This document shows, one piece after another, positions 4,242-39,653 of a stretch of DNA of 64,000 nt. The translations under genes were made by a program, and so were the position numbers. Position 1 is the stretch's first letter. Each line of letters opens with the position of its first letter. This DNA is from Nitrospirota bacterium (GTDB lineage Bacteria; Nitrospirota; Thermodesulfovibrionia; Thermodesulfovibrionales; JdFR-88): positions 1 through 64,000 of the forward strand of contig JAJYIR010000008.1 in the NCBI GenBank assembly GCA_021789935.1, read 5' to 3'. Below the pieces are notes generated by a model. The model was given only the letters and a program-made list of their open reading frames with translations, searched no databases and had not been told where the DNA came from.

Positions 4242-6620
4242 ATGAAAAAACTCTGGTTTGTCTTTCTTGTAGTGCTGATCCCGCTTATGGCCGGAACGGC
4301 GGTAGGCGGATACCTTGGGATAATCAAAGACACCCCCTCTATAAGTGAACTTAAAAAGGGGGATCCCCCAGGCACGGATATATATGCCGACAACGACACC
4401 TTCGTGGCTGAGATCAGCGCACAGAAGAGCATACGGGTGCCCTTCAGGGAGATGCCAAAAAACCTGGTAAACGCGGTAGTGGCCGTGGAGGATGCCCGGT
4501 TCTACAAGCACAAGGGACTGGACTACATAGGCCTGATCAGGGCCGCGTTGACGGACCTCTATTACCACCGCATAAAGGAAGGTGGCAGCACCATCACCCA
4601 GCAGCTTGCCAAAATAACATTCCTTAGCCCTGAACGCACATTTAAAAGGAAGCTCCGGGAGGCGGCCCTGGCCATAAAGATAGAGAAAAGCCTTACAAAA
4701 GACGAGATACTGGAACTCTATCTTAACCGCGTATATTTCGGGCACGGCGCTTACGGCGTCCAGGAGGCAGCCAAGCTCTACTTCGGAAAGCCCGTCTCGC
4801 GGCTCACCCTGCCGGAGGCCGCCCTGCTTGCCGGTCTCATAAAGGGGCCAGGCGAATTCTCACCCTTTATCCACCCGCAAAAGGCAAAAGTACGCCAGGG
4901 TTTCGTGCTTCAGAGAATGCACGATGAGGGATATATAAACACAGCCCAGATGACGTGGGCGTTCAAGACGCCGATAAGGCTGAGCCCGGTCAGGCCGGCT
5001 TTCGAGTCTAATGCATATTTTGTGGATTACGTAAAGAAATACCTCCTGCAAAAATACGGAGCCAAGATGGTTTATTCCGGAGGGCTCAAGGTATATACCA
5101 CTCTCAGGAAAGATTACCAGGCAGCCGCCGAGGAGTCCCTGAGGCAGGGTCTAAGGGAAATTGACAAGCGGCGGGGCTGGCGCGGGCCTATACGGCATAT
5201 AAACGACCTTAACGCCCTCAAATCAGCGGAAAACAAAAACACATCCTCGGTACTGCCCGCACGCCGGGAGATAACCGATGGGACGGTTTTAAAGGTAACG
5301 CCTGCCAGCGCCGTGGTAGACGTGGCGGGGCGCACGGGTGTGCTTTTGAAAAAAGACGCCCTATGGGCACAGACCGTCCTGCTTGCGGATGGCAGAACAA
5401 AGACCATAAGGAATTTTAACCTTGCAAAGATACTGCGCCCGGGAGACGTCATTGAAGTCAGGGTGAAGTCCTCCTCCGCGCGCGGCCTTTTCGGACTGTC
5501 GCTCGAGCAGGAGCCGCAGGTCCAGGGGGCTGTCGTGGCGATGGACCCGAAGACGGGGTTTGTCCGGGCCCTTGTGGGGGGATATGACTACCTGCAGAGC
5601 GAGTACGACCGGGCCCTTTACGCCCAGAGGCAAGCCGGTTCATCCTTCAAGCCGATCATCTACGGAGCGGCCATAAACGAAGGCATACCGCCTTCTTACG
5701 TTATCGATGACGCGCCCGTAACGTTCCAGTGGAACGGGGGGGAATGGAGCCCCAAGAATTACGAACGCACCTATGGCGGGCCGACCTCCCTGCGGGACGG
5801 ACTTGCCCATTCAATAAACGTGGTCACCGTAAAGCTGCTGGACCATATAGGAGTGGAAAAGGCCATAGATTTCGCGCATTTGATGGGGGTAGAGGAGCAC
5901 ATGCCGCACGACCTTACCCTGGCCCTTGGCTCTCTGAGCATAACGCCAATCGACATGCTGACCGCCTATGCCCCTTATGACAACGGGGGCACAAGGGTGC
6001 GGCCGATAATAATAAAATACATAACCGATTCCAAAGGCCGGATACTGGAATCCAACCAGCCTTCAACGCAAAAGGTGATCACCCCCCAAGTCGCTTTTCT
6101 CATGACCTCCATGCTGGAAGACGTGGTCAGGAACGGGACTGGCTGGCGGGCGAGGGTGCTGGGGCAGGACGTGGCGGGCAAGACCGGGACAACCAGCGAT
6201 TACCGTGACGCCTGGTTCATAGGATATACGCCGGACCTCATGGCCGCATCATGGGTGGGCTTTGACAACATGCAGAGCCTGGGCCAGGGAGAAACCGGCG
6301 CCAAGGCCGCAAGCCCCATTTGGGTGAATTTCATGAAATACGTGCAGGGCAGGGCCCCGTCTGAAGGTTTCGGGCCCCCTCCCGAGGGCGTCTCAGCCTA
6401 TACGGTGGACTCTGTGACAGGCGCCATTATAGACAATTCGCCTGCGCCCGTTTCAAACCCGGAATATTACAAGGAATACTTCATAACGGGGACGGAGCCG
6501 CAACCGGGGACGAGCCTTGAGCCCCTGCAGCCGCGTTACAACGGAGGTCCATCCGGGGGCGGCCCGAATGGGGGAGGATCAACCGCGAGAGGCAGACCAA
6601 ACGGGGGCGCACAGAATTAG
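4242..6620 (+). CDS. mrcA: Penicillin-binding protein 1A (class A, bifunctional)
   Basis: 792-aa bitopic inner-membrane peptidoglycan synthase with glycosyltransferase and DD-transpeptidase activities. One N-terminal membrane anchor (about residues 4-25) is followed by the GT51 domain with catalytic E83 in VEDARFYKHKGLD and the GGSTITQQLAK motif. The transpeptidase domain shows SSFK (Ser467, Lys470), SIN (524-526) and KTGTT (647-651). An insertion between the two (about residues 310-420) resembles the OB-like domain of PBP1a. The last roughly 30 residues are Gly/Asn-rich low complexity, likely a flexible periplasmic tail. Directly after the stop is a T7-C-T6 tract that may end transcription. 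Confidence 0.96.
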   Translation: MKKLWFVFLVVLIPLMAGTAVGGYLGIIKDTPSISELKKGDPPGTDIYADNDTFVAEISAQKSIRVPFREMPKNLVNAVVAVEDARFYKHKGLDYIGLIRAALTDLYYHRIKEGGSTITQQLAKITFLSPERTFKRKLREAALAIKIEKSLTKDEILELYLNRVYFGHGAYGVQEAAKLYFGKPVSRLTLPEAALLAGLIKGPGEFSPFIHPQKAKVRQGFVLQRMHDEGYINTAQMTWAFKTPIRLSPVRPAFESNAYFVDYVKKYLLQKYGAKMVYSGGLKVYTTLRKDYQAAAEESLRQGLREIDKRRGWRGPIRHINDLNALKSAENKNTSSVLPARREITDGTVLKVTPASAVVDVAGRTGVLLKKDALWAQTVLLADGRTKTIRNFNLAKILRPGDVIEVRVKSSSARGLFGLSLEQEPQVQGAVVAMDPKTGFVRALVGGYDYLQSEYDRALYAQRQAGSSFKPIIYGAAINEGIPPSYVIDDAPVTFQWNGGEWSPKNYERTYGGPTSLRDGLAHSINVVTVKLLDHIGVEKAIDFAHLMGVEEHMPHDLTLALGSLSITPIDMLTAYAPYDNGGTRVRPIIIKYITDSKGRILESNQPSTQKVITPQVAFLMTSMLEDVVRNGTGWRARVLGQDVAGKTGTTSDYRDAWFIGYTPDLMAASWVGFDNMQSLGQGETGAKAASPIWVNFMKYVQGRAPSEGFGPPPEGVSAYTVDSVTGAIIDNSPAPVSNPEYYKEYFITGTEPQPGTSLEPLQPRYNGGPSGGGPNGGGSTARGRPNGGAQN

Positions 6621-6711
6621 ATAGCTTTTTTTCTTTTTTGCATAACTGATATGTCTGGTATCATTGCACAATAGGGATGAGGGGTTTTTTAAAACAAGGA
6701 GGGGATGCAAC

Positions 6712-7137
6712 ATGATTTTAAAAAAGTTATCTGCCCTGGGAAGCATGGCCGTCATCATTGTGCTTGCCGCGCCGCTTGTTTCACCCGCGCAGACATTCAC
6801 CGGCGCCCCCACAGTTTGCGAAAAGACAAAAACAAAAACAAAGACAAAGACAAAAACCCCCTCTGCCTATAAAAAAGCCCTGGCCGCCTATTCGCGGGGC
6901 GATTACCGGAAGGCTGCCAGCCTGCTTGAGAGGGAGGTAAAGGAGCGTCCTGAAGCCGGGAGCTATTACCTGCTTGGCTATGCAAGCTACAAGCTTGGCA
7001 ACCGGAAGGCCGCAAAAAGATATTTTAAAGAGGCATACCTGATAGACCCGGGGCTCAACCCCGGAAACATCATCTCCAAGATAAGAAAAACAAAAAAAAC
7101 AAAAAAAGCGGAAAGGCACGGCAGGACCCGGCAATGA
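6712..7137 (+). CDS. Small exported TPR-repeat protein with Lys-Thr tract
   Basis: About 141 aa. The start at 6712 is set by a strong AAGGAGGGG ribosome-binding site 6-14 nt upstream; a longer ORF from 6664 has none. A signal peptide (MILKKLSALGSMAVIIVLAAP) is followed by a Lys-Thr dipeptide run, then two TPR-like helical pairs (AYKKALAAYSRGDYRKAASLL and SYYLLGYASYKLGNRKAAKRYF), ending in a basic Lys-rich tail. The role is unknown; periplasmic protein-protein interaction is likely. Its ATGA overlap with the phosphomannomutase gene suggests translational coupling. Confidence 0.75.
   Translation: MILKKLSALGSMAVIIVLAAPLVSPAQTFTGAPTVCEKTKTKTKTKTKTPSAYKKALAAYSRGDYRKAASLLEREVKERPEAGSYYLLGYASYKLGNRKAAKRYFKEAYLIDPGLNPGNIISKIRKTKKTKKAERHGRTRQ
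6826..6858 (+). repeat. Hexanucleotide microsatellite (ACAAAA/ACAAAG units)
   Basis: Consecutive 6-nt units of ACAAAA or ACAAAG type lie inside the TPR gene and encode a run of Lys-Thr dipeptides. Being a multiple of three, gain or loss of units would change tract length without breaking the frame. Confidence 0.7.
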
Positions 7138-8498
7138 CCATCCCTCACATATTCAGACAATACGATATACGCGGGGTCTGGGGCAAGGACCTGAACGAGG
7201 AGATCGTCTACGAGATAGGCAGGGCGATGGCTTTCCGGCTTTATGAGAGGTTTGACGGCAAGGGGGACCTCAGGGTGACGGTGGGGCGCGATGTAAGGGT
7301 GAGTTCGCCCGCCATGCTTTCCGCCATTTCCCGTGCGTTCATGGAAAGCGGCATAGATGTTGTAGACCTGGGGGCCTGTCCCACCCCTGTGCAGTACTTC
7401 TCCCTTTTCAGGATGCCCGTGGATGGCGGCGCAATGATAACTGCAAGCCATAATCCTGCCGAGTTCAACGGGCTTAAGCTGTCGATAGGCACAGAGACCC
7501 TTTACGGGACGGAGATACAGCGGATCCGGCAGTATATAGAGGAAGGCAAAACGGTGGAAGGCCATGGCTCTCTTACAAGGCACGACATATTGCCCGAGTA
7601 CATGCAGTACATGCGTGCCCAGTTCGGGCGGCTAAGCGGGATGAAGGCCGTGATCGACTGCGGAAACGGTGTGGCCGGCCTGGTCGCCCCGGAGCTTTTC
7701 AAGAGCCTGGATATTGAAACCATTCCGCTTTACTGTGAGCCGGACGGCACATTCCCCAATCATCACCCGGACCCCGTGGTGCCGGAAAACATAAAAGACC
7801 TCATAGATACGGTAATAAGAGAAAAGGCGGATGTGGGTATAGGCTATGACGGGGACGGTGACAGGCTTGGGGTGGTGGATGGGGACGGCGAGATCGTCTG
7901 GGGAGACAGGCTGCTTTCGCTCTTTGCCCGGCAACTGCTGGCGGAGCACCCCGGGGCGGCAATAATCGGGGAAGTAAAATGCTCGCAGAGCCTTTATGAT
8001 GACATAGAGGCCCGCGGCGGGGTCCCCATGATGTGGAAGACCGGGCATTCCCTGATAAAAAGCAAGATGAAGGAGTCCGGGGCCCTTCTGGCCGGGGAGA
8101 TGAGCGGGCACATTTTCTTCAAGGACAGGTATTTCGGGTATGACGATGCCGTGTACGCGAGCCTGCGTTTAATGGAGGCGCTTAAAAGAAACGGCCCCCC
8201 GTACTCCGTGAAAAGGCTCCTGGGCGGCCTGCCGCGGATGTCTATCACCCCGGAGATAAGAGTGGATTGCCCGGACGACAGGAAGTTCTCGGTCGTGGAG
8301 CGGATCAAGGAAGAACTGGGCAGGGAACACCCCATAATCGATATCGACGGGGTAAGGGTGCGGTACGCGGATGGATGGGGGCTCGTAAGAGCGTCAAATA
8401 CTCAGCCGGCGCTCGTACTGCGCTTCGAGGCCATGGATGATGAATCTCTTGAAAAGATGCGCCGGGACGTCGAAGGGAAACTGAAAAGGCTACTTTAA
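7134..8498 (+). CDS. algC: Phosphomannomutase/phosphoglucomutase
   Basis: 454-aa alpha-D-phosphohexomutase that interconverts hexose 1- and 6-phosphates for LPS or exopolysaccharide precursors. It shows the phosphoserine loop TASHNPAEFNGLK, the metal loop YDGDGDRLGVVD, the sugar-binding GEMSGHIFFKDRY and the C-terminal phosphate-binding RASNTQPALVLRFEA, in the right order and at the normal family length. The N-terminal FRQYDIRGVWG is also characteristic. It overlaps the upstream TPR gene by 4 nt and converges on the MerR gene with a 9-nt tail overlap. Mannose versus glucose preference cannot be read from sequence. Confidence 0.95.
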   Translation: MTIPHIFRQYDIRGVWGKDLNEEIVYEIGRAMAFRLYERFDGKGDLRVTVGRDVRVSSPAMLSAISRAFMESGIDVVDLGACPTPVQYFSLFRMPVDGGAMITASHNPAEFNGLKLSIGTETLYGTEIQRIRQYIEEGKTVEGHGSLTRHDILPEYMQYMRAQFGRLSGMKAVIDCGNGVAGLVAPELFKSLDIETIPLYCEPDGTFPNHHPDPVVPENIKDLIDTVIREKADVGIGYDGDGDRLGVVDGDGEIVWGDRLLSLFARQLLAEHPGAAIIGEVKCSQSLYDDIEARGGVPMMWKTGHSLIKSKMKESGALLAGEMSGHIFFKDRYFGYDDAVYASLRLMEALKRNGPPYSVKRLLGGLPRMSITPEIRVDCPDDRKFSVVERIKEELGREHPIIDIDGVRVRYADGWGLVRASNTQPALVLRFEAMDDESLEKMRRDVEGKLKRLL

Positions 8499-8933
8499 CT
8501 TCTTGTCCCTTTGCTTGGCCGACAGGTAAACTACACAGTCCTCGCAAATGCGCCCGGTGGTACGGTTGCATATCATGCGGTTAAGCTCCCAGCAGGGGTT
8601 GGTCCGGTCTATGAAAGCGGAGCAACTGCCGCGCCGCTCCTCCGAGCAGTTTGTTATCTCCCAGCACGGGGCGTACTGGAGCAGGCGCTTTATCCCTTCT
8701 ATGCTTATCTTTTTATGGTGGATGAGGTCCCGGATGCACATGAGCCACTTGATATCGTTTTCCGAATAGTAGCGGTTCTTGTTCCGCCTGGAAGGTTTCA
8801 GTAGGCCATGTTTTTCATAAAGCCTGAGGGTCTGATCCGTGGTCCCGACCAATTCGGAAACAACCCCGATTGGATAAAGGGGCATGTCCTGTTTCTGCTT
8901 GCCCGTGAGCAATTCGCTGTCCCTTGCTTTCAT
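8490..8933 (-). CDS. MerR-family regulator with two-CW cysteine domain
   Basis: 147 aa. The N-terminal MerR winged helix-turn-helix (YPIGVVSELVGTTDQTLRLYEKHGLLKPSR) is followed by the dimerisation region. A C-terminal cysteine-rich module reads APCWEITNC, SCSAF, NPCWELNRMIC and CEDC: eight cysteines with two Cys-Trp pairs, matching the two-CW domain of anaerobe regulators. A metal or Fe-S/redox-responsive sensor is the natural inference; the ligand is not known. The gene stands alone and converges on the phosphomannomutase gene. The 177-bp region behind it is AT-rich and shows no gene. Confidence 0.88.
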   Translation of the reverse strand: MKARDSELLTGKQKQDMPLYPIGVVSELVGTTDQTLRLYEKHGLLKPSRRNKNRYYSENDIKWLMCIRDLIHHKKISIEGIKRLLQYAPCWEITNCSEERRGSCSAFIDRTNPCWELNRMICNRTTGRICEDCVVYLSAKQRDKKLK

Positions 8934-9111
8934 CCGGCCTGATTAATGTAGTAAAAAAACCTGCAACTCAACATTGCAATTATTAAACCTTTTTTTGGGC
9001 AAAAAAATCAACCGGAAGCTTTTTTTATTTTTCAATCCCTTGGGGCCGCGTCCGCTATTCATTTTCAGACCCTCCGGGGAACTCGATGCCGGAATTTTTT
9101 TTAATTTGTAT

Positions 9112-9774
9112 TCACTCGCTTCGCTTGCTATCCATTTTTCCGGCAAAAAACTCCATGGTCTGCCTGGCTATCTCCCCCACCGGTTTTTCTGAAAGCGTTT
9201 TGCCGTCATAGTAAAAAAACCGGGCCTCGTCGTCCGCCAGCAGGGCTATCGAAGAGGCGTAAGTATCATCGCCAAGGTTCTTCATGACCAGGATTGCGTT
9301 TGCTCTTACGGCCGGGTCCCCGCTGCGCATGGAAAGAAAGGCCACCTCCCTGTAAGGGAGCACAAGTTCCGGATTGGAGGGGGCAAGCCCGGCAAGGGCG
9401 TAGAGTATGCCCGCAGCAAACATGGCCTCTTCGCGAAAAGAGACAAGCACGGGCAGCAGATGTGAAAAAGCGGACGGATCGCGTTTTATTATTTCCCCTA
9501 TCATCTCCGGCGCGCTCCAGGGATTGCCGCCGGACTCATCGCGCATCATTACGAAAAGCCTGTCTATTGCGTCCAGCCCCGAGGACTGCCCCATACCGGC
9601 GGATACAAGCCCGACGGCCTCTATTGCCCTCCAGCAGGTGAGCTCTCCCTTGTCATAGGTAAGGGAAATAAGGCGCCTTAATATGCCTTTATGCTTCCGG
9701 CCCAGCTCAATGATCCCCGCGTAGTCCCCGGTAAGCAGCCGTTCTTTTATAGTGTCTTTAAGAAGGGTTTCCAT
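9112..9774 (-). CDS. HEAT-repeat-like protein, DVU0298 family
   Basis: 220 aa, predicted all-alpha with HEAT-like helical pairs. WRAIEAVGLVS and GNPWSAPEMIGEIIKRDP match what I remember of the DVU0298 family of sulfate reducers and Nitrospirota. No signal peptide, no membrane segment and no catalytic motif. Function unknown. It is not obviously in an operon. Name given from memory of the family; the gene itself is solid. Confidence 0.7.
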   Translation of the reverse strand: METLLKDTIKERLLTGDYAGIIELGRKHKGILRRLISLTYDKGELTCWRAIEAVGLVSAGMGQSSGLDAIDRLFVMMRDESGGNPWSAPEMIGEIIKRDPSAFSHLLPVLVSFREEAMFAAGILYALAGLAPSNPELVLPYREVAFLSMRSGDPAVRANAILVMKNLGDDTYASSIALLADDEARFFYYDGKTLSEKPVGEIARQTMEFFAGKMDSKRSE

Positions 9775-30149: not shown

Positions 30150-30290
30150 AACATTTCGTTCTCGGCCTAAATCCGCCAAAGGGCGGATGCGGGGGAACCG
30201 GAATACGGGGCGAATTCCTTTTTGAGGAAAGGGTACTTCCAGCCCTAGCCCGTCAGCTAACCTCGCAGGCGATAGTGGAGGAAGTTTTTT
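30150..30290 (+). promoter_or_regulatory. c-di-AMP riboswitch (ydaO/yuaA class)
   Basis: The stretch upstream of kup contains the conserved blocks of this aptamer in order: CCTAAATCCG (30166), GGGGGAACCGG (about 30191), GGGGCGAATTCC (about 30207) and the diagnostic CCCGTCAGCTAACCTCGCAG (30249-30268) ending GTGGAGG. Class members commonly shut down K+ importer expression when c-di-AMP is high. A TTGACA at 30125-30130 may belong to its promoter. Sits in the otherwise gene-free 29984-30471 interval. Confidence 0.9.
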
Positions 30291-30471: not shown

Positions 30472-32286
30472 ATGCAGGAAAAACAGAGCGCAATAAAGGG
30501 CATCACCAAGTCCATGGGCCTTGTTTTCGGCGACATAGGGACAAGCCCGATCTACACCCTTACAGTCGTTTTCCTTATCCTCAAAACAACGCCCGGCAAT
30601 ATAATCGGAGTCCTCTCGCTCATGATATGGACCCTTGTCATGCTTGTGACCGTCCAGTATGCCTGGGTCGCGATGAACCTGAGCCGGCGGGGCGAAGGCG
30701 GCACGATCGTGCTCAAGGAGATACTGGCCTCCGGCCTCAAATCCAAAAAGCTTATTTTCCTTATCTCCATATTGTCCTTCATAGGTATATCGCTTCTCAT
30801 GGGGGACGGCGTTATCACGCCCGCCATAAGTATCCTGAGCGCCGTGGAAGGGACAGTGCTGATACCGGGTTTCGAACACATCTCCAGGGCCGCGATAGTG
30901 CTGATATCGATAATCATCGCCGCCCTGCTTTTCTCCGTGCAAAGCAAAGGGACGGAGAAAGTGGCGGGGGCCTTCGGCCCGATAATGATAATATGGTTTA
31001 CGGCCCTGACCCTGTCAGGCCTGGCAGGCATCATGAGTGCCCCGGCTGTCCTTCTGGCCCTGAACCCTTACTACGGACTTAAGTTCCTGTACCTTCACAG
31101 CCTGAAGGGATTCCTGGCCCTTGGGGACATCATACTGGTGGCCACCGGCGGCGAGGCGCTTTACGCGGATATGGGCCACCTGGGCGCAAAACCGATAAGG
31201 GAGGCGTGGGGGGTGGTCTTTGTGGCGCTCGTCCTTAATTACCTGGGGCAGGGCGCTTTCCTTATGACACACCCGGCCGCAAAAAACGTCCTGTTCGAGA
31301 TGGTCTTCCATTATGCCCGGGCCCTATATGTGCCTTTTCTTCTGCTCAGCATCGCCGCCACTGTCATAGCCTCGCAGGCAATGATAAGCGGTATGTTCTC
31401 TATAGTCTACCAGGGGATAACCACCAGAGTGATGCCGATGTTCAAGGTGGACTACACCTCACGTGAACTGCAGTCCCAGATCTATATCCCCGCGGTCAAC
31501 TGGTTCCTCCTTTTTGCCGTTGTCCTCATGATGCTGAAATTCCAGGCATCCAGCAACCTGGCGGCGGCTTACGGACTGGCGGTCACCGGGACGATGACGC
31601 TAACCGGCATCATGATAATCTGGATATTCACTTTAAGGAAACAACCCCTCTACGCTATTGTTGGTGTCGCGGTCACCTGCGTGGATGTCATGTACCTGAG
31701 CGCCAATATGACCAAGATACCGCACGGCGCCTATTGGTCTCTCACCGTAGCGTCCATGCCCCTGGCCATCATCATATTGTGGACGGAGGGCCAGAAGAAA
31801 CTTTACCGCCATATGGAGTTCATGCCGCTTGGAGATTTCCTGATGAAATTCCGGGAAGTCTACTCCAGCCCGCGAAAACTGGAGGGCACCGCCCTCTTCC
31901 TGTTAAAGGACGTAAAGGAAATACCTTTTTACATAATCCAGACGATGTTCAACCACGGCGTGGTTTACGAAGATAACATTTTCCTGTCGGTGATCAAAAG
32001 GAATGACCCTTACGGCGTCTCCGGTTACTTCAAGGAGGACCTGGCCCTGGGCCTGAGGGTTTTCGAGATACAGGCGGGGTATATGGAGATGGTCGAGGTG
32101 GAAGAGATACTCAAGGAGGCGGGCATCGAGGCAAGGGTCGTCTTTTACGGGCTTGAGGACATCAGCACCGTCAACCCGGTATGGAAGATGTTTTCTGTGA
32201 TCAAGAAACTCACGCCCACATTCATAAAGTTCTACAATTTTCCCTCAAAAAAACTGCACGGCGTTTTGACGGAAATAAATCTGTAG
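30472..32286 (+). CDS. kup: KUP-family potassium uptake transporter
   Basis: 604 aa, about 12 membrane helices and a cytoplasmic C-terminal domain from roughly residue 440. N-terminal signature MGLVFGDIGTSPIYTLTVVF, then RRGEGGTIVLKEIL, LMGDGVITPAISILSAVEG and GGEALYADMGHLG. Imports K+ with protons by family knowledge. Control by the c-di-AMP riboswitch immediately upstream agrees with this role. A hairpin follows the stop. Confidence 0.95.
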   Translation: MQEKQSAIKGITKSMGLVFGDIGTSPIYTLTVVFLILKTTPGNIIGVLSLMIWTLVMLVTVQYAWVAMNLSRRGEGGTIVLKEILASGLKSKKLIFLISILSFIGISLLMGDGVITPAISILSAVEGTVLIPGFEHISRAAIVLISIIIAALLFSVQSKGTEKVAGAFGPIMIIWFTALTLSGLAGIMSAPAVLLALNPYYGLKFLYLHSLKGFLALGDIILVATGGEALYADMGHLGAKPIREAWGVVFVALVLNYLGQGAFLMTHPAAKNVLFEMVFHYARALYVPFLLLSIAATVIASQAMISGMFSIVYQGITTRVMPMFKVDYTSRELQSQIYIPAVNWFLLFAVVLMMLKFQASSNLAAAYGLAVTGTMTLTGIMIIWIFTLRKQPLYAIVGVAVTCVDVMYLSANMTKIPHGAYWSLTVASMPLAIIILWTEGQKKLYRHMEFMPLGDFLMKFREVYSSPRKLEGTALFLLKDVKEIPFYIIQTMFNHGVVYEDNIFLSVIKRNDPYGVSGYFKEDLALGLRVFEIQAGYMEMVEVEEILKEAGIEARVVFYGLEDISTVNPVWKMFSVIKKLTPTFIKFYNFPSKKLHGVLTEINL

Positions 32287-32409: not shown

Positions 32410-32748
32410 CTAGACGGCTTTTTCTCCGCTTTCGCCCGTCCTTATCCTGATGGCGTCATCCATGGAGGAGACGAATATTTTGCCGTCCCCGATCTCGCCG
32501 GTGGCCCCGGCCTTCTGGATCGCCCGGATGATTTTGTCCGCTTCGGCATCTTTCACTATCAGATCGATCTTTTTCTTGGCAAGCAGGGAAACCTTGTAAG
32601 TCTTCCCCCTCACCTGGTGTTCAACGCCCTTCTGGCTGCCATGGCCTTCTATCTCGGAGACCATGACCCCCGGATGGCCCACTTTCTCAAGGGCGGAAAG
32701 CACGTCACCCACCTTTGCCGGACGTATTATGGCTTCTATCCTTTTCAC
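32410..32748 (-). CDS. glnB: PII nitrogen-regulatory protein (GlnB/GlnK-like)
   Basis: 112 aa, same length as E. coli GlnB and alignable throughout. MKRIEAIIRPAKVGDVLSAL, the T-loop SQKGVEHQVRGKTYKVSLL, then GEIGDGKIFVSS and IRIRTGE for nucleotide binding. Tyr51, the uridylylation site of GlnB, is kept; Tyr46 is Val and the T-loop apex is otherwise divergent. Starts with GTG at 32748, with AAAGGAGG 8 nt upstream. Lies directly after a permease that carries its own PII domain, so the two PII modules could form mixed trimers or compete (inference). Confidence 0.93.
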   Translation of the reverse strand: MKRIEAIIRPAKVGDVLSALEKVGHPGVMVSEIEGHGSQKGVEHQVRGKTYKVSLLAKKKIDLIVKDAEADKIIRAIQKAGATGEIGDGKIFVSSMDDAIRIRTGESGEKAV

Positions 32749-32766
32749 TAAAAAACCTCCTTTTTT

Positions 32767-32799
32767 GTCCCCGGAAAACCTTTCGGTTTCCCGGGGGAC
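32767..32799 (-). other. Intercistronic hairpin between the APC-PII and PII genes
   Basis: GTCCCC and GGGGAC close a long stem with inner GGAAAACC/GGTTTCC and a 4-nt loop. There is no U-tract; the glnB ribosome-binding site follows within a few bases. It could stabilise or process the transcript, or attenuate translation. Confidence 0.5.
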
Positions 32800-32818
32800 C
32801 CATTTCCCGGAAATTCTC

Positions 32819-34675
32819 TTAAATTGCGTAAACGCCTTTCTCTCCGGTCCGGAGCCGCATGGCCTCCTTCGCGTCCAGCACGAAGATCTTGCCGTCGCCG
32901 ATCTTGCCGCTGCTTGCGACCTCGCGGATTATCTCCATCACCTGGGGCAGGTCCCAGTCATTGACGACTATATCCACCCTGACCTTGGGCAGGAACGTGA
33001 CCGTATCGCTTCCGCCGCCGCCCTGTTGCCTGCCGAAACCCTCGACCTTGGTCGCGGTCATTCCCATGATGAGCTCTTCGTCCTTGAGAACATCAACCAG
33101 GACGCTCAGTTTCTCGGGCCGGATCACGGCCGAGATCATCTTCATCCCATAGGTCTTGCTCACACTGGTCATGATGACGTACCCGATGCTGATAAGCGCC
33201 CAGCCCCCGGCGATGTAGAAGCAGATCTTGGCCTCGGTCTGGGAGTCCTTGTTGCCGATGGCGTAAAGATAGATGATCGCCACCAGCATGATCACGTTGG
33301 CTATCACGCCCAGGCCCGGGATTATCATGTGCTTTACGGCTTTGAAATCCTTTCTCTTTTTGAATGCGACGATGGTCCACACGCAGATCAGCCCGTACAG
33401 AACGAAGGTCCCGAAGTTCGAGGCCAGCGTTATGCCGGTAAGTCCCACGACGGACTGTACGCCGATGGCCGCTATGACGCTGGATACGATAGCCAGGGTC
33501 CATATGGCGGTGTGGGGCGTGCTGAATTTGCCGCTCATGAAGCCGATGAATTCAGGAAGCTCCCTGTCTTCGGCCAAGCCGTTGCTTATGCGCACGGCCG
33601 TGTTCATGCAGCTAAGCGTGGTGCCTATGATCGCGATGATAACGGTTATGGCGATCGTTATCATGAGCCCGAAGCCGACACCGTGCAGCAGGTTGTCGCC
33701 TACAAGCTTGGCCAGGTCCCCGATCGGGGCGGAGGACGCTCCTGCCGCATCCATACCGGTGAGGGTCTTGCCCGCATTTACAAGCGTATATTTATCTCCT
33801 ATCATCAGGCCGGTGGCGAAGTATTCAAAAAGATAGGCGAACAGGCCCTGCACAACAAGGGCGATAATGATGGCCCTTGGGATGTTCTTCTCCGGCTGTT
33901 TGGTCTCGGCGGCCAGCGCAGTGCAGCTCTCGAAACCGACCAGGATCAGTATGGCTATAGTGGCCTGCACCAGCACACCGTTCAGTGAATGCGGCTTCAT
34001 CACATCAAACACACCGCTAAAGGACCACGCGGTTGCGTGCTGGGGGTTTGATATGCGGTACCAGATCGCCAGGCCGCTGAATACTACCAGCGAAACCCAC
34101 TGGATGACATTGATCCAGATGGATACCATAGTGGAACCGGTCACGCCGCGATAGGCTATATAGGCCACTCCGAAAGCCATTAAGGCCGCGATTACGACCA
34201 GTTCCGGGTTGGACAGCGTACCTCCGGTAAATTGGGTGTACAGATAACCTAGCATGGTGGCGAACATGGCAACCATTACCCCCGGGTAGACCCAGTAGAA
34301 CAGATGCGCGCCCCACCCGGTGGCGAGCTTGGAAATACGGGCCGCGGAGATCGCCCCCTTCGAGCGCTTGCCGCCGTTGCTGTCTATAAAGGCCTTTTCC
34401 GCAAAATACGCCGCGCTGGCAAATCCCGCCTCGGGGTATATCCTGGCCAGCTCGGCGTAAGAGAGGGCCGTAAGGAATGCGACGGCCAGCGCCGCCACTA
34501 TGCCCGGCCATATGTCCGCCGCCACTGAGGCACCGCCAGGCGCGGTCGCCGAGGCCTGCAACTGGTATGTGATCCACAGGAACGCGCCCGGCGCAATCAG
34601 CGCCATCGCGTTCATTGTGGCGCCCACCAAGCCTAGCGTTGGTACGATCTTCGGTATGCTTGTCTGTTCAGCCAT
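32819..34675 (-). CDS. APC-family permease with fused C-terminal PII domain
   Basis: 618 aa. Residues ~1-500 form an APC amino-acid/polyamine-type transporter with about 12 helices: PTLGLVGATMNAMALIAPGAFLW, ALSYAELARIYPEAGFASAAYF, LVGFESCTALAAETKQPEKNIPRAI. Residues ~511-618 are a full PII domain (MKMISAVIRPEKLSVLVDVL, GFGRQQ, FLPKVRVDIVV, GKIGDGKIFVLDA, RLRTGEKG). The T-loop is about five residues short, Gly-rich (QGGGGSDTV) and lacks Tyr51, so uridylylation is not possible there, while nucleotide-binding residues are kept. Cis-regulation of transport by ATP/ADP/2-oxoglutarate or another ligand is the natural inference; substrate unknown. Strong AAAGGAGGG ribosome site. Confidence 0.93.
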   Translation of the reverse strand: MAEQTSIPKIVPTLGLVGATMNAMALIAPGAFLWITYQLQASATAPGGASVAADIWPGIVAALAVAFLTALSYAELARIYPEAGFASAAYFAEKAFIDSNGGKRSKGAISAARISKLATGWGAHLFYWVYPGVMVAMFATMLGYLYTQFTGGTLSNPELVVIAALMAFGVAYIAYRGVTGSTMVSIWINVIQWVSLVVFSGLAIWYRISNPQHATAWSFSGVFDVMKPHSLNGVLVQATIAILILVGFESCTALAAETKQPEKNIPRAIIIALVVQGLFAYLFEYFATGLMIGDKYTLVNAGKTLTGMDAAGASSAPIGDLAKLVGDNLLHGVGFGLMITIAITVIIAIIGTTLSCMNTAVRISNGLAEDRELPEFIGFMSGKFSTPHTAIWTLAIVSSVIAAIGVQSVVGLTGITLASNFGTFVLYGLICVWTIVAFKKRKDFKAVKHMIIPGLGVIANVIMLVAIIYLYAIGNKDSQTEAKICFYIAGGWALISIGYVIMTSVSKTYGMKMISAVIRPEKLSVLVDVLKDEELIMGMTATKVEGFGRQQGGGGSDTVTFLPKVRVDIVVNDWDLPQVMEIIREVASSGKIGDGKIFVLDAKEAMRLRTGEKGVYAI

Positions 34676-34715
34676 CCAATTTCCCTCCTTTAAAATCCAT
34701 GAATGATCATCCGCT

Positions 34716-35036
34716 TTATCTGCCGCCCAGTTGAATTACCAGGCCTCCTGCAACTATCAAAACAAGTCCAAGCCAGGTGGGAACAGCGATACTCTCCCTG
34801 AATATAAAGTGCCCGGCCAGAACACTTACGATGGCGAAGACCCCCACATAAACACCAAGCAGCTTTGAAAAATCCCATCTCACCATATTGACCGTGAGCC
34901 CGTAAAAGCCCAATACGCCAAAGCCGATTACGATCAAAATGAGGCCGCCGGACCTCAACCCGCGGCGGATCAGGGCATCACCGCCCACCTCCAGCACCGC
35001 CGCAAGCAGGAAAATAAACCAGGCGATTAACGGCAT
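34716..35036 (-). CDS. SMR/DMT-type small four-helix transporter
   Basis: 106 aa, four membrane helices. The first helix holds a membrane Glu (FLLAAVLEVGGDALIRRG) in the position of the essential Glu of SMR proteins. The last helix has the Gly-rich WLGLVLIVAGGLVIQLG. Substrate unknown; SMR members export quaternary amines or guanidinium. It lies 40 nt before the APC-PII gene and is likely co-transcribed, hinting at nitrogen-compound export (inference). Confidence 0.78.
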   Translation of the reverse strand: MPLIAWFIFLLAAVLEVGGDALIRRGLRSGGLILIVIGFGVLGFYGLTVNMVRWDFSKLLGVYVGVFAIVSVLAGHFIFRESIAVPTWLGLVLIVAGGLVIQLGGR

Positions 35037-35100
35037 GAGAATTCGCTCCGGCCCGGCGCGGTCAATTCCATCGGCAAAATCAAAAAGGGCATCATCGCCG

Positions 35101-36213
35101 TTACCATGTGTACATTACGCCAAGCGCCAGGGTGTCCTGCTGCTTGCGAGTGTTGCCGGCAAAGGTGTTCGCGTTAGACCAGTCGTGCCTGTACTCCGGC
35201 CTCAGAAGCAGGTTCTTGGCCAGCGTGTACTGGGCAGTAAGTGTGACCTCCTTCAGGTTCTGGACGAATCCGGTCCTGAAGCCCTGGGGGTCCTTCATTT
35301 CCTCGGCCCTTACCGTGCCGCTTACCTTGTCCGTAAACACGTAATTTGCATAAAAAGCCGCGCCGTACCATTTGGCGTCCTCATTAAGGCCGTTGGGATT
35401 AGCCGGGCTGCCTTTCTCATATCCGTAGTCGGTGTTCACGACCAGCGTCAGGTCCTTTACCGGGCTTAGCGAACCCACCCAGTCGAACAAAAACCTGTTG
35501 TCATGGTTGTCGCCCGCTTCCTCCGGGCCGTAAAGGAAATTGAAGACAAGGCTCGACGCCGAAGAAGGCGTTACGGTCGTTGACAGGCCAAATGTTTTGC
35601 CGGTATTGTTGTCGGTCTCATCGTCCCACCCGTTCAGAAGGTATACATTCGCCGTGACCGCGCCGGAAACCGGATAGCCCGCCATCAACCCCGTATGTGT
35701 AAACGGTATGGCGTAGTTAAAGAGGAAAGAGCGTGAATAGTTATAGTCTCCGCTGGCCTCTATTACCTCCTCCCCGGTGAAGGTGGCGAATTTCCCGAGC
35801 TGAAGCGTAAGCCCCTTCCCGATGGGGGCCACATAGTCAATATATGCCTCGGTAAGGTCAAAAGGCTGGCTCGTATCTCCAAGGCCGTTTGAGTGTATCC
35901 ATTTCGCCGTCTCCCCGGCTGAGAGTTTCACCTTGAAGCCCACTCCGCCCAATGGCGCGGCCTTCAGGAACTGAAGCTCCATCAGGTCCAGCGTAAAGCT
36001 GTTTCCGCTGTGATCGAACACCCTCCAGTCATTCGTGTCCGAACCTCTCAGGTTGCCCGTGTAGCCGCCCTGGAGATAGACGCTCAGGCCAAGGGCCTGT
36101 TTGATGGCGTCCACTGTACCCGGCTTCGCAGTGTCATCGGCAAAGGCGGTTGTGAGGCTTAAAAACAAGATGCAAACAAAGGCAAGACCATAGACAAAAA
36201 ACCTTTTCTTCAT
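35101..36213 (-). CDS. Outer-membrane porin (putative beta-barrel porin-2/BBP2)
   Basis: About 370 aa. The start at 36213 follows GGAAGGAGC. A signal peptide (FFVYGLAFVCILFLSLTTAFA) is followed by alternating amphipathic strands: LSVYLQGGYTGNL, FKVKLSAGETAKW, AYIDYVAPIGKGLTLQLGKFATFTGEEVIEA, ending VMYTW with terminal Trp. This matches OmpL/BBP2-like porins. The longer ORF from 36279 is not used. Its place in front of the transporters suggests it supplies their substrate across the outer membrane. Confidence 0.85.
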   Translation of the reverse strand: MKKRFFVYGLAFVCILFLSLTTAFADDTAKPGTVDAIKQALGLSVYLQGGYTGNLRGSDTNDWRVFDHSGNSFTLDLMELQFLKAAPLGGVGFKVKLSAGETAKWIHSNGLGDTSQPFDLTEAYIDYVAPIGKGLTLQLGKFATFTGEEVIEASGDYNYSRSFLFNYAIPFTHTGLMAGYPVSGAVTANVYLLNGWDDETDNNTGKTFGLSTTVTPSSASSLVFNFLYGPEEAGDNHDNRFLFDWVGSLSPVKDLTLVVNTDYGYEKGSPANPNGLNEDAKWYGAAFYANYVFTDKVSGTVRAEEMKDPQGFRTGFVQNLKEVTLTAQYTLAKNLLLRPEYRHDWSNANTFAGNTRKQQDTLALGVMYTW

Positions 36214-36268
36214 TGCTCCTTCCATTCCTCCCTTTAAGTTATTGGAATAAAACAAAAATATCGGGCGG

Positions 36269-36502
36269 TCAAAGACCACCGGCAGATTCCGTGCTTTCTC
36301 CTCTATCCTGGACGCCGTCTTCAGTCACCTCTTTCCTGATGCGGATTCCGTATTTCTTCAGCCTGTAGTTGAACATCCTCTCCGAAAGCCCGAGCATCCT
36401 TGCCGCCCTGGATTTGATCCAACTGGCCTCCCTCAGGGCATTTCTGATCTCGGCCTTTTCCAGCTCCTCAACCTTTTCCTTCAGGGCCATTTTGGTATTC
36501 AT
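36269..36502 (-). CDS. Stand-alone Fis/NtrC-type HTH DNA-binding protein
   Basis: 77 aa from the ATG at 36502 (or 36490, MALKEK). KAEIRNALREASWIKSRAARMLGLSERMFNYRLKKYGIRIRKE is the Fis-type helix-turn-helix found at the C-terminus of NtrC/NifA activators, closest to the NifA style. There is no receiver, GAF or AAA+ module, so it cannot open sigma-54 promoters alone; it may compete with or help a full activator. A sigma-54 promoter and a perfect inverted repeat sit just upstream. First gene of the porin/SMR/APC-PII/PII run. Confidence 0.82.
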   Translation of the reverse strand: MNTKMALKEKVEELEKAEIRNALREASWIKSRAARMLGLSERMFNYRLKKYGIRIRKEVTEDGVQDRGESTESAGGL

Positions 36503-36516
36503 GGAACAATGTATAC

Positions 36517-36531
36517 GCCAAAACCGTGCCA
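36517..36531 (-). promoter_or_regulatory. Sigma-54 (RpoN) promoter
   Basis: Minus strand TGGCACGGTTTTGGC: GG and GC with exact -24/-12 spacing; only one deviation in the -12 block (TGGC for TTGC). The start of transcription would fall near 36505, immediately before the HTH gene, favouring the later ATG (36490) or a very short leader. Confidence 0.72.
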
Positions 36532-36575
36532 GGCTGCAAATCATTGAAAATGCAGCAATTTAAGGATTGGACAGC

Positions 36576-36611
36576 AATCCCAAAAATGTGAGGCTCTACA
36601 TTTTTGGGATT
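36576..36611. promoter_or_regulatory. Perfect 14-bp inverted repeat, likely activator site
   Basis: AATCCCAAAAATGT, 8-nt spacer, ACATTTTTGGGATT. Centre lies about 65-75 bp upstream of the sigma-54 promoter, a normal place for an enhancer (UAS). It lies between divergent genes, so it is unlikely to be a terminator. Confidence 0.65.
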
Positions 36612-36732
36612 ACAAATTCGTATATTGGCTTTGTATGGACGGTACCGTTTACGTAGGAATGAGACAAAATGTTGCTCCTGAACATTTATTCTTTTCTTGA
36701 CAGGAGTCCGCATTGTAAGAGACTATTATTTA

Positions 36733-37422
36733 ATGAAAGCGCTTGTGCTTAAAAACATACCCATAGAGGGGCCGGGCACCATAGAGGATTACCTTAGACA
36801 ACAGGCGGTCCCTTTTGATATCGTCGAGTTGATGGAGGGCGAGGAGCCGAACTCTTCCCAGGACTACTCCCACCTTATAATGATGGGCGGCCCGATGGCG
36901 GTCTACGAGATGCATATGCACCCCCATCTTGTAAAGGGAGCGTCCCTGATAGAGGATTTCATAAAAAAGGGCAAATCCGTTTTGGGGGTCTGCCTTGGGG
37001 CCCAGATGATAGCCCATGTTCTGGGCGCGAGGGTCTATTCCGGCGGACAGAAAGAAGTGGGCTGGTATGAGGCAGACATCACGCCGGAAGGGATGATGGA
37101 CGAGGTATTCAGGACGCTTTCCGTGGAGGGCAGGCCAAAAGCCGAGGTCTTCCAGTGGCACGGGGACACCTTCGACCTGCCGGATGGGGCCGTAAGGCTT
37201 GCCTCCTCACCCGTTTACGCGAACCAGGCATTCAGGTGGGGCAAAGGCGTTTATGCCCTTCAGTTCCACATAGAAGTAACACCCCCGATAATCACGCAGT
37301 GGTTTGCCGGGGAACAGGATTTCTTCGAGACCCAAAAACTCTTTAAAAAGACCCTGGATGTATACCCGGAATACTCGAAGCGGGCAATGGGGTTTTACGG
37401 CAGCTTCTTCTTCAGGCCGTAG
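36733..37422 (+). CDS. Class I glutamine amidotransferase (GMP synthase-like)
   Basis: 229 aa from ATG 36733. Catalytic triad positions: Cys in VLGVCLGAQM, His and Glu in ALQFHIEV. HLIMMGGPMAVYE and FQWHGDTFDLPDGAVRLASSPVYANQAF match the stand-alone GATase-1 family related to GuaA N-terminus. Releases ammonia from glutamine or hydrolyses gamma-glutamyl compounds; acceptor unknown. It is divergent from the PII locus and shares its control region. Confidence 0.88.
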   Translation: MKALVLKNIPIEGPGTIEDYLRQQAVPFDIVELMEGEEPNSSQDYSHLIMMGGPMAVYEMHMHPHLVKGASLIEDFIKKGKSVLGVCLGAQMIAHVLGARVYSGGQKEVGWYEADITPEGMMDEVFRTLSVEGRPKAEVFQWHGDTFDLPDGAVRLASSPVYANQAFRWGKGVYALQFHIEVTPPIITQWFAGEQDFFETQKLFKKTLDVYPEYSKRAMGFYGSFFFRP

Positions 37423-37505: not shown

Positions 37506-39653
37506 ATGAGCTTTTCTATCTTCGCCGACCTGAAAAGGGATTACAGGGCCGTTTTCGACAAGGACCCGGCTGCGGTGAATGGTCTGCAGGTCTTCCTTTT
37601 TTATCCGGGTTTTCACGCCATAGCCATGCACAGGGTGGCGCACGGCTTGAGGGGGCTCGGCGTGCCCTTCCTGCCGGGGCTTATCGCCTTCCTTTCCCGC
37701 GCCCTTACCGGCATAGAGATACACCCCGCCGCAAAAATTGGACCCGGCTTTTTCATAGACCACGGGATGGGCGTTGTCATCGGGGAGACAACGGAGGTAG
37801 GCCCGGACTGCCTTCTGTACCAGGGCGTTACGCTCGGGGGCACCGGAAAGGAGAAAGGCAAGAGGCACCCTACCCTGGGCGGCCATGTGGTCGTTGGGGC
37901 CGGGGCAAAAGTCCTCGGGCCGATAACCATCGGGAATTATGTTAAAATAGGCGCTAATTCCGTTGTGCTTAAGTCCGTACCAGAAAATTCCATAGTGGTC
38001 GGAGTGCCGGGGCGGGTCATAAAACGGAAGGTCCTCAGGGTCCATCAGGACGGGCTGGAGGAAGTGCTTGATCATATCCGCATGCCCGATCCGTACGAAG
38101 AGAAGTTCTCCGAAATAGAGGGCCAGCTGCAGGAAATCCTTGGGAAGATCGAAAGGCTTGAAGGAAAGGAAGGGCCTTCTTTTTTGAAAATATACAACAC
38201 CCTTACGGGCAGGAAAGAGACCTTTGTCCCGCTTGCTCCAGGCAGCGTGAACATGTACGTCTGCGGGGTGACGGTATATGACGTCTGCCACATCGGGCAC
38301 GCAAGGAGCGCGGTGGTCTTCGACGCCATCAGAAGATATTTCCGCTACAGGGGATATGCCATCCGCTTTGCCAAGAACTTTACCGACATAGACGACAAGA
38401 TAATCGGCAAGGCAGCCAAGGAAGGCATGCCCTGGAACCAGGTGGCGGAGAAATACATTAAGAAATATTACGAGGACATGCACAGGCTGGACGTGCAGGA
38501 CGCGGACCTGGAGCCGCGCGCCACGGGGCACATCAAAGAAATAATAGATATTGTAAAGGGCCTTGTGGAAAAAGGCCACGCCTACGCCATAGGCGGCGAC
38601 GTATATTTTTCCGTCCCGAGTTTCCCGGAATACGGGAAGCTCTCCGGCAGGCGGCTTGAGGAGATGCTGGCCGGTGCGAGAGTGGAAGTGGATGAAAGAA
38701 AGAAAAACCCCATGGACTTTGCCCTTTGGAAGTCCTCAAAGGAAGGGGAGCCAGCGTGGGACAGCCCCTGGGGGCCGGGACGCCCCGGATGGCATATAGA
38801 ATGCTCCGCGATGGTGCTTAAGCACCTGGGCGAAACCATTGACATCCACGCCGGGGGAGCGGACCTCATTTTCCCTCACCATGAAAACGAGATAGCGCAA
38901 TCAGAGGCCTATACGGGAAAACCTTTTGTGCGGTATTGGATGCACAACGGCTTCATTACGGTAAACAAGGAGAAGATGTCCAAAAGCCTTGGGAATTTCT
39001 TTACCGTAGAGGAGATACTGGAGAGGTTTGACCCGGAGAGCGTGAGGCTTTTCCTCCTGCAGACCCACTACAGAAGCCCCATAGAGTTTTCAAACGAGCC
39101 GCTGGAAGAGGCGGAGCGCACCCTTGAGCGCTTCTATCAAAGCCTTGAGAGGCTGGAAGACTTTCTTTTTCTTCCGATGCCCGGGGCACCCGCAGCGAAA
39201 AAAGAGTCCGTCCCGGCAGGCTTCGAGGAGGCGGAAGGCGTCCTTGCCTCCTTCAAAAAAGCGTTCATGAAAGCGATGGATGACGACTTCAACACCGCTT
39301 TGGCCATCGGACACATATTTGAGCTTATCAAGGAGATAAACAGGTTCCTGGACGCCAAACCGGCAGGCGCGAAGGCAAAAGATATCATGTCCCGGGCAAA
39401 ACAGGAACTGGAGGAAGCGGCAAACGTCCTTAATGTTTTCAACAGGACCCCCGCCCAGTGGCAAAGGGCACTGCTGCAGATAAAAAAAACCGGGATAGAC
39501 GAGGCCACCATAGAGAGGCTGATAGAGGAAAGGCGCCTGGCAAGGGCTCAGAAGGACTGGAAGCGGGCGGACGTGATACGCGCGGAACTGGACGCGAAGG
39601 GCATCACGCTTGAAGACAAGACCGGCTCAACCGCATGGCGGGTAAAGATATAG
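37506..39653 (+). CDS. Fused serine O-acetyltransferase-cysteinyl-tRNA synthetase
   Basis: 715-aa single ORF. Residues 1-~220 are a complete CysE: MHRVAHGLRGLGVPFLP, then hexapeptide-repeat GIEIHPAAKIGPGFFIDHGMGVVIGETTEVG, GGTGKEKGKRHPTLGG and VGVPGRVIKRK. Residues ~226-715 are a complete CysS: FLKIYNTLTGRKE, zinc/ATP CGVTVYDVCHIGHARS (HIGH 262-265), GGADLIFPHHENEIAQSEA, KMSKS at 490-494 and anticodon part. A helical linker (EEKFSEIEGQLQEILGKIERLEG) joins them with no stop or frameshift. It links the first step of cysteine synthesis (O-acetylserine) to cysteine charging. In Firmicutes cysE and cysS are adjacent genes. Confidence 0.95.
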   Translation: MSFSIFADLKRDYRAVFDKDPAAVNGLQVFLFYPGFHAIAMHRVAHGLRGLGVPFLPGLIAFLSRALTGIEIHPAAKIGPGFFIDHGMGVVIGETTEVGPDCLLYQGVTLGGTGKEKGKRHPTLGGHVVVGAGAKVLGPITIGNYVKIGANSVVLKSVPENSIVVGVPGRVIKRKVLRVHQDGLEEVLDHIRMPDPYEEKFSEIEGQLQEILGKIERLEGKEGPSFLKIYNTLTGRKETFVPLAPGSVNMYVCGVTVYDVCHIGHARSAVVFDAIRRYFRYRGYAIRFAKNFTDIDDKIIGKAAKEGMPWNQVAEKYIKKYYEDMHRLDVQDADLEPRATGHIKEIIDIVKGLVEKGHAYAIGGDVYFSVPSFPEYGKLSGRRLEEMLAGARVEVDERKKNPMDFALWKSSKEGEPAWDSPWGPGRPGWHIECSAMVLKHLGETIDIHAGGADLIFPHHENEIAQSEAYTGKPFVRYWMHNGFITVNKEKMSKSLGNFFTVEEILERFDPESVRLFLLQTHYRSPIEFSNEPLEEAERTLERFYQSLERLEDFLFLPMPGAPAAKKESVPAGFEEAEGVLASFKKAFMKAMDDDFNTALAIGHIFELIKEINRFLDAKPAGAKAKDIMSRAKQELEEAANVLNVFNRTPAQWQRALLQIKKTGIDEATIERLIEERRLARAQKDWKRADVIRAELDAKGITLEDKTGSTAWRVKI

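Follow-up and report, generated by a model that had tools for sequence, protein, structure and literature searches.

The window, a 64-kb stretch of DNA analysed as a whole, contains an operon with the gene order HTH_8, BBP2 porin, SMR-like protein, APC-PII fusion and separate PII (Table 1). The starts tabulated for HTH_8 (an ATG downstream of the promoter, in an open reading frame that reaches 36544) and for BBP2 are the likely ones. Pfam matches bore out both the lone NtrC/NifA-style HTH and the BBP2 porin that an earlier note on this DNA had named. The SMR-like transporter of that note is a marginal call, with Multi_Drug_Res (24.2 bits) just above its cut-off of 23.7 and UPF0060 nearly equal (24.1 bits, cut-off 24.9). 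Homologues of this small protein at 58–60% are present in Amt/GS/PII loci of other taxa. The divergent glutamine amidotransferase was confirmed as class I; its open reading frame opens at 36697 and the tabulated start was placed by homology. On the other side, a kup gene is convergent at 30472–32286 and is preceded by a c-di-AMP riboswitch. Since this was the only riboswitch seen and the operon itself gave no Rfam match, riboswitch control of the operon was rejected.

Table 1. Genes, domains and promoter features of the APC-PII locus.
Feature	Position	Strand	Basis
Separate dedicated PII protein, 20-residue T-loop span	32410..32748	-	P-II E 1.8e-26
APC permease-PII fusion, 618 aa	32819..34675	-	Pfam, AlphaFold2, GkApcT 6f34 fold match
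Fused PII domain, residues 511-618, right behind TM12	32819..33145	-	PF00543
APC (LeuT-fold) membrane domain, residues 1-505	33161..34675	-	PF13520 and structural match 6f34_A
Small 4-TM SMR/YnfA-like protein	34716..35036	-	marginal Pfam match
BBP2 beta-barrel outer-membrane porin	35101..36213	-	PF07642 E 8e-68
Lone Fis/NtrC-type HTH_8 DNA-binding protein	36269..36502	-	HTH_8 E 1.2e-11
Sigma-54 (-24/-12) promoter TGGCACGGTTTTGGCG	36516..36531	-	10/12 to consensus
Inverted repeat CAAAAATGT-N8-ACATTTTTG, candidate enhancer/operator	36581..36606	.	pattern search
Divergent class-I glutamine amidotransferase-like protein	36733..37422	+	GATase E 3e-16

The permease had been described as ending in a complete PII domain, and this is what Pfam finds in the one open reading frame. 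AA_permease_2 covers residues 54–491 (E 3.5e-20, 72.8 bits against a cut-off of 27) and P-II covers residues 511–612 over its full length (profile 1–102 of 102, E 3.1e-20, 72.8 bits against a cut-off of 25), placing the second domain in the PII (GlnB/GlnK) family by profile. The profile score and a LeuT-type fold together place the membrane domain in the APC family. AlphaFold2 predicted the fusion protein as a monomer with pLDDT = 77, and the top Foldseek match of the membrane domain was 6f34_A (E 5e-12, TMt 0.78). This protein, the bacterial CAT homologue GkApcT (PDB: 6f34/5oqt), is the best of all solved structures by fold (5e-12) and the top bacterial solved structure by sequence profile (1.4e-5), although the identity is only about 16% and GkApcT has no PII domain. 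When aligned, the TM1 site reads A-P-G in the fusion and G-T-G in GkApcT, and the GkApcT TM5 Lys pair is replaced by T/G. Since these residues differ, substrate and coupling may depart from those of known amino-acid permeases, even though the sequence-profile and fold matches among PDB entries point to amino-acid transporters. The Foldseek matches also include KimA and cation-chloride cotransporters.

The fused PII domain keeps the residues by which PII proteins bind ATP, Mg and 2-oxoglutarate (2OG); their roles in ATP/2OG binding have been described (PMC8395244). The window protein has R519 (R9), Q550 (Q39), K564 (K58), K596 (K90), R607 (R101) and R609 (R103). Across the 32 fused domains (the window and the matches listed), T29, K58, G87–K90 and R101 are invariant, as is R9 in the fused family, while Q39 and R103 are each present in 29 with three exceptions. 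The claim that the nucleotide-binding residues were retained thus extends to the family, and a degenerate, non-binding remnant was rejected since these residues are conserved. The same source (PMC8395244) stresses that the PII C-terminus must be free for 2OG binding, which is compatible with the APC-PII topology since it leaves that end free.

The T-loop is another matter. From Q39 to K58 the window domain has 15 residues, compared to 20 in E. coli GlnB, and the segment is Gly-rich without R47 or Y51. A short, Gly-rich loop lacking the Tyr was therefore described correctly; however, the loop ranges from 15 to 28 residues across the fused family, and the five-residue deletion is the extreme of the window member rather than a family trait. 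What the fused family has in common is the loss of R47 and Y51 at the T-loop tip, both being absent from 32 of 32 domains. Since not every PII has Tyr51, its absence bars the name of GlnD-modified PII and not membership of the PII fold. In the host genome, which is 100% complete, no GlnD UTase was found; Tyr51 of the separate PII is thus not a GlnD uridylylation site here, and the contrast drawn earlier on the basis of a uridylylated Tyr was dropped. The separate protein is a classical PII as proposed, with a P-II profile match, the usual T-loop span, R47, G48 and Y51. Such a gene lies near the fused gene in 28 of the 31 fused loci listed, mostly about 150 bp or less downstream, and the separate PII has R47 in 26 of 32.

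The search for other APC-then-PII proteins covered the 80 loci most similar to the window protein, so that the ratio of fused to unfused loci (31 to 45 in the neighbourhood counts, among the matches listed) is not a population frequency. Besides the window, the fusion is uninterrupted in at least 31 further loci from about ten bacterial phyla and many independent studies, and it was found in 8 of the 12 genomes of the organism's own family. Among the matches listed, the fused proteins group in a single clade (SH-aLRT 100) that branches from within the unfused, PP2C-linked relatives. The junction between TM12 and PII (residues 488–519) has the same length without indels in 32 of 32 proteins, while several other loops vary. 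The genomes are mostly metagenome-assembled, and the earlier note had allowed for an assembly join of a PII that is a separate gene in homologues. Given this recurrence and fixed-length junction, no sign of a join is seen, and the chance that an assembly or annotation artefact brought two genes together is negligible. No description of an APC-PII fusion was found in the open-access full-text literature, an absence that is weak evidence.

The context of the fusion is nitrogen assimilation. The earlier note had asked whether its neighbours co-occur elsewhere, and the separate PII, Amt-GlnK pairs, glutamine synthetase (GS), NadE and porins do recur beside the fusion. Some clusters are complete, such as locus L061, which reads porin-[APC-PII]-PII-amtB-glnK-amtB-glnK-glnA. 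Individual members vary: among the loci listed, Amt lies within 6 kb of only 16 of 31 fused genes, the rest having no Amt or being cut short, GS is near 9 of 31 fused and 32 of 45 unfused genes, and BBP2 or another predicted outer-membrane barrel is near 22 of 31 and 21 of 45, respectively. Two genomes (G107 and G032) share the HTH_8-outer-membrane-protein layout with Amt replacing APC. The glutamine amidotransferase adjoins amtB in one genome (G120); near only 3 of the 31 fused loci listed, it is peripheral and was rejected as a core part of the system.

The sigma-54 promoter proposed ahead of the HTH gene could not be accepted on its match alone, since 9.7 boxes of 10/12 were expected by chance in the window and 6 were seen. 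It is nevertheless considered real because the box is kept in 7 of 8 orthologous operons and its spacing to a conserved element further upstream is constant; rpoN is present in the genome, and an HTH gene accompanies the operon in 8 of 8 family members. The upstream element, an inverted repeat, precedes the -24 element by 49–50 bp in nine promoters. Its exact pattern is unique in its own genome and occurs at seven places in 296 Nitrospirota genomes, namely this operon and six sites upstream of amtB. When the element and the sigma-54 box were searched together at the fixed spacing, the host genome returned exactly two sites, this operon and glnK-amtB, while the reversed control of the pattern returned none. 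The operon thus has a -24/-12 promoter and an upstream element common to nitrogen genes, as in a sigma-54 nitrogen regulon.

A further difference separates fused from unfused proteins. A PP2C phosphatase and a Ser/Thr kinase adjoin 43 of the 45 unfused genes listed and none of the 31 fused genes. From this exclusion PII seems to have replaced the phosphorylation switch of the unfused relatives, and since it is a single change on the tree, it represents one evolutionary event and not many.

The earlier note's transporter for a nitrogen compound with its sensor in cis is supported by the conserved fusion, the nitrogen neighbours and the promoter architecture in common with glnK-amtB; ligand binding, substrate, direction and gating are inferred. 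On balance, the operon is judged more likely than not to serve nitrogen limitation by taking up a small nitrogenous solute through an inner-membrane APC importer gated in cis by its fused PII. Under nitrogen shortage, sigma-54 with an activator bound to that upstream element would turn on the operon along with glnK-amtB, and the solute would cross the BBP2 porin to be imported by the APC domain. An obligate PII trimer would form under the membrane, either from the PII domains of neighbouring protomers or from one fused and two separate PII chains; the separate PII is probably the partner of the fused domain in gating. When nitrogen is poor (Mg-ATP and 2OG), the PII domain would permit transport. 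When nitrogen is rich (ADP, little 2OG), it would close the transporter, either by changing conformation or by letting the intact T-loop of the separate PII, with R47, dock. The fused PII would thereby do the job of the PP2C/kinase pair. Against this explanation, most APC transporters are monomeric or dimeric while PII is a trimer, the TM1 and TM5 residues differ from those of GkApcT, and Amt accompanies only 16 of the 31 fused loci listed. A more specific version is tentative and held at rather less than even confidence: the kinase-PP2C switch was replaced once by an attached PII, a mixed trimer with the separate PII gates the APC importer directly by 2OG and ADP/ATP, and the rewired module later reached about ten phyla.

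The fused domain could instead act mainly as a scaffold that holds the transporter together as a trimer or brings in the separate PII. The real regulator would then be the T-loop of the separate PII, with ligand binding by the fused copy being secondary. The fixed junction length and the conserved R47/G48/Y51 of the neighbouring PII are in keeping with this, and heterotrimers of PII paralogues are known. It is unlikely, as the ligand residues are near-invariant with no drift and one FCPU426 locus (L088) has the fusion with full flanks and no separate PII nearby. A somewhat less likely reading turns the signal outward: the APC domain would sense a nitrogen compound outside the cell, and its occupancy would be passed on by the fused PII to the separate PII, GlnK or other targets. 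Several PII-family proteins are encoded alongside, and the separate PII nearly always adjoins. The tip of the fused T-loop, with which a PII normally docks onto its target, is degenerate, so this domain may work on PII partners instead of a channel. However, conservation of the ligand residues is as strict as in a genuine sensor, the APC fold is of the transport type with a porin in the operon, and the neighbours are uptake genes. It is very improbable that the protein is an APC-superfamily carrier of an ion or osmolyte, such as a potassium system, that uses the ATP/ADP reading of PII. The matches to KimA and cation-chloride cotransporters and the convergent kup with its riboswitch would fit, but kup is near only 3 of the 31 fused loci listed while PII, Amt and GS recur, and the operator is common to this operon and glnK-amtB.

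The proposed cis-gated importer has partial counterparts among known systems. In GlnK-AmtB, the PII T-loop blocks the transporter and ATP/2OG releases the block. As is predicted for APC-PII, a PII that reads ATP/ADP/2OG controls a nitrogen importer, the genes are adjacent and the promoter architecture in the host genome is shared; however, GlnK acts in trans on the Amt ammonium channel, whereas in APC-PII the PII is covalently part of an APC transporter and its T-loop lacks R47 and Y51. KimA, an APC-superfamily K+ importer (PDB: 8b70), also has a C-terminal nucleotide-reading cytosolic domain, but of the USP type and for c-di-AMP and potassium. SbtA-SbtB likewise has a PII-superfamily protein dedicated to one transporter, here for bicarbonate; in contrast, SbtB is PII-like, encoded by a separate gene, reads other ligands and serves carbon rather than nitrogen. 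Cyanobacterial PII controls nitrogen uptake at the NrtABCD and UrtABCDE transporters (PMC6603209), as is proposed for APC-PII, although these are ABC transporters met by PII in trans without a fusion.

For the poorly known Nitrospirota, the common operator defines a nitrogen regulon. Few nitrogen sensors are as widespread as PII, which is studied in the form of free trimers that work in trans. The fusion would be a naturally occurring transporter that carries its own metabolic gauge, and it offers one polypeptide on which the gating of transport by metabolites can be measured. The kinase/phosphatase-linked relatives in parallel provide a natural regulator-swap experiment. If the proposed gating is true, a docking loop that is lost and a ligand site that is kept would separate sensing from docking.

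The permease is encoded by a single open frame of 618 aa in which AA_permease_2 and P-II both score above their Pfam cut-offs. Pfam thus confirms the permease with a complete PII domain described in the earlier note, as well as the adjoining free PII gene. The BBP2, HTH_8 and GATase assignments also hold, the SMR match is marginal, and the GATase drops out of the proposed module as its association is only local. With its start corrected to the likely position 36502, the HTH gene lies downstream of the sigma-54 promoter. PII action on nearby transporters is known, and in KimA an APC transporter is known whose C-terminal domain reads a nucleotide. The open-access papers searched contain no description of PII fused to an APC transporter, and it is this fusion that would be new.

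Features of the window and of compared loci (L, locus; G, genome; G000, the window's own)
Feature	Location	Strand	Remarks
c-di-AMP (ydaO) riboswitch	window 30154-30286	+	89.5 bits; upstream of kup (30472-32286)
Free PII	window 32410-32748	-
APC-PII fusion	window 32819-34675	-
Sigma-54 box	window 36516-36531
Inverted repeat CAAAAATGT-N-ACATTTTTG	window 36581-36606		49-50 bp upstream of sigma-54 box
Serine acetyltransferase-like (hexapeptide) domain fused to cysteinyl-tRNA synthetase	window 37506-39653	+	one 715-aa ORF; also in G204 and G202 (L046, L049)
Region with tandem NifI-type PII genes	L044 (G000:C45) 5629-9379	-	near NifH-like and nitrogenase component-1-like ORFs
Second c-di-AMP (ydaO) riboswitch	L072 7285-7432	-	upstream of - strand gene

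Full-length fusions occur in 8 of the 12 genomes of the window's family (the other seven 73–93% identical), in the order HTH - BBP2 - (SMR) - APC-PII - PII, rearranged in G198. A scan of named genomes, from which the best 80 of 567 relatives were kept, gave 31 fused loci, 45 unfused loci and four cut by contig ends. The fused loci among these 80 have record names of Nitrospirota, Omnitrophota, Elusimicrobiota, Planctomycetota, Firestonebacteria, FCPU426, Fibrobacterota, Syntrophaceae, Spirochaetaceae and 'Deltaproteobacteria'; their genomes are mostly metagenome bins, so that individual phylum names may be wrong, though not the overall pattern. An assembly artefact is ruled out by the 8 family genomes and the 31 fused loci, and reading the fusion as an assembly or annotation artefact is disfavoured.

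Among the fused loci in the best 80 of 567, a separate PII lies near 28 of 31 fused genes, an outer-membrane barrel near 22, Amt near 16, GS near 9 and NadE near 4, the last fitting the established control of NadE by PII (PMC7196632). The complete cluster porin-APC-PII fusion-PII-amtB-glnK-amtB-glnK-glnA is found at L061, L065 and L068, and the same porin-to-GS cluster with a type III GS at L064 and L073. GAF-ANTAR antitermination-type regulators adjoin the fusion in 5 of 31 loci (L067, L058, L066, L076, L080), which belong to phyla without the HTH_8 gene.

The sigma-54 box is kept in 7 of 8 family operons. The inverted repeat precedes it by 49–50 bp in seven of these operons and, outside the family, at two amt promoters; L033 and L050 have only the ACATTTTTG half. 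A scan of 296 Nitrospirota genomes finds seven exact copies of the repeat, one at the window operon and the other six each immediately before an amt gene or amt operon. The composite ACATTTTTG-N47-51-TGGCA has exactly two sites in the window's own genome (2.47 Mb, 60 contigs), at the window operon and before glnK-amtB, and its reversed control has none there. Elsewhere in the order, most composite matches that have a good sigma-54 box lie in front of an HTH_8 operon or of glnK-amtB. The genome encodes rpoN and about 19 sigma-54 activators. Since promoter and repeat are common to glnK-amtB and amt genes, the window operon seems to be part of the ammonium regulon; no other independent evidence supports a nitrogen role of the fusion operon as strongly as this shared operator architecture. 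A palindrome, CAAAAATGT-N7-10-ACATTTTTG, about 49–50 bp before a sigma-54 box marks Nitrospirota glnK-amtB and HTH_8-porin-transporter operons (window; L138, L139, L141-L144, L155-L157, L162, L169, L170), making it a candidate nitrogen operator.

The fused PII domain (E. coli GlnB numbering) retains T29, G37, K58, G87-K90 and R101 in 32/32 fusions, R38 in 30, Q39 and R103 in 29, and R9 (R519) invariantly. These residues are among those holding ATP, Mg and 2-oxoglutarate in GlnK (PMC8395244). That study also reports that 2OG binding depends on an unobstructed PII C-terminus; the fusion leaves this end free, the permease being attached at the PII N-terminus. R47 and Y51 are absent from all 32 fused domains, whereas the separate PII has R47 in 26/32, G48 in 28 and Y51 in 29, so the classical features are divided between two PII copies. 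The five-residue T-loop deletion does not extend to the family, as the Q39-K58 span ranges from 15 (window) to 28 residues; in the separate PII it is exactly 20 in 32/32. The separate copies also carry M29 (24/32) and H36 (32/32, partly by selection, as they were chosen by a GHG motif). The window's own genome lacks GlnD, so Tyr51 in the separate PII is not uridylylated by that enzyme, and the uridylylation contrast drawn earlier falls away. Of the seven P-II matches in that genome, two are the window's and one is divergent; two more (L042, L043) each lie immediately before an amt gene, and a tandem pair shares its contig with genes of the nitrogenase family (L044). The NifH-like ORF at L044 (190 aa, matching the 271-position profile only up to position 151) looks truncated or split.

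Residues 488-519, from TM12 into the first PII strand, are of equal length in 32/32 fusions while several other loops vary, and in the AlphaFold2 model (mean pLDDT 77) helix 476-509 runs into strand 511-518. From this slack-free tether we infer mechanical coupling of transporter and PII. On the favoured reading the fusion is probably an importer gated in cis by its PII domain; a PII domain serving as scaffold and a transceptor are less probable, and a potassium transporter is disfavoured. By sequence profile and fold, GkApcT and further amino-acid transporters of the SLC7/CAT type are the closest solved structures. The unwound TM1 segment aligns as A-P-G against G-T-G in GkApcT, and the GkApcT TM5 Lys pair with T/G, so substrate and ion coupling may differ from those of GkApcT.

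Among the best 80 of 567, a PP2C phosphatase and/or Ser/Thr kinase accompanies 43 of 45 unfused loci and 0 of 31 fused loci (Fisher 2.8e-19 assuming independent loci, which these are not); glutamine synthetase is present in 32 of the 45. A quick IQ-TREE analysis, with SH-aLRT as the sole measure of support, places the fused proteins in one group (support 100), closest to PP2C-linked relatives. A more distant unfused Nitrospirota group (L034-L041), with Amt/PII/SMR/BBP2 neighbours, carries a KDGKPV-type low-complexity insertion, about 80 residues long, behind a membrane segment whose end is near residue 210; in several members a single PP2C-kinase fusion protein adjoins the APC. Divergent Amt-family proteins, all matching PF00909, occur at L034, L038 and L040. 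We read these findings as a single replacement of a phosphorylation switch by PII, the transporter having already served nitrogen assimilation.
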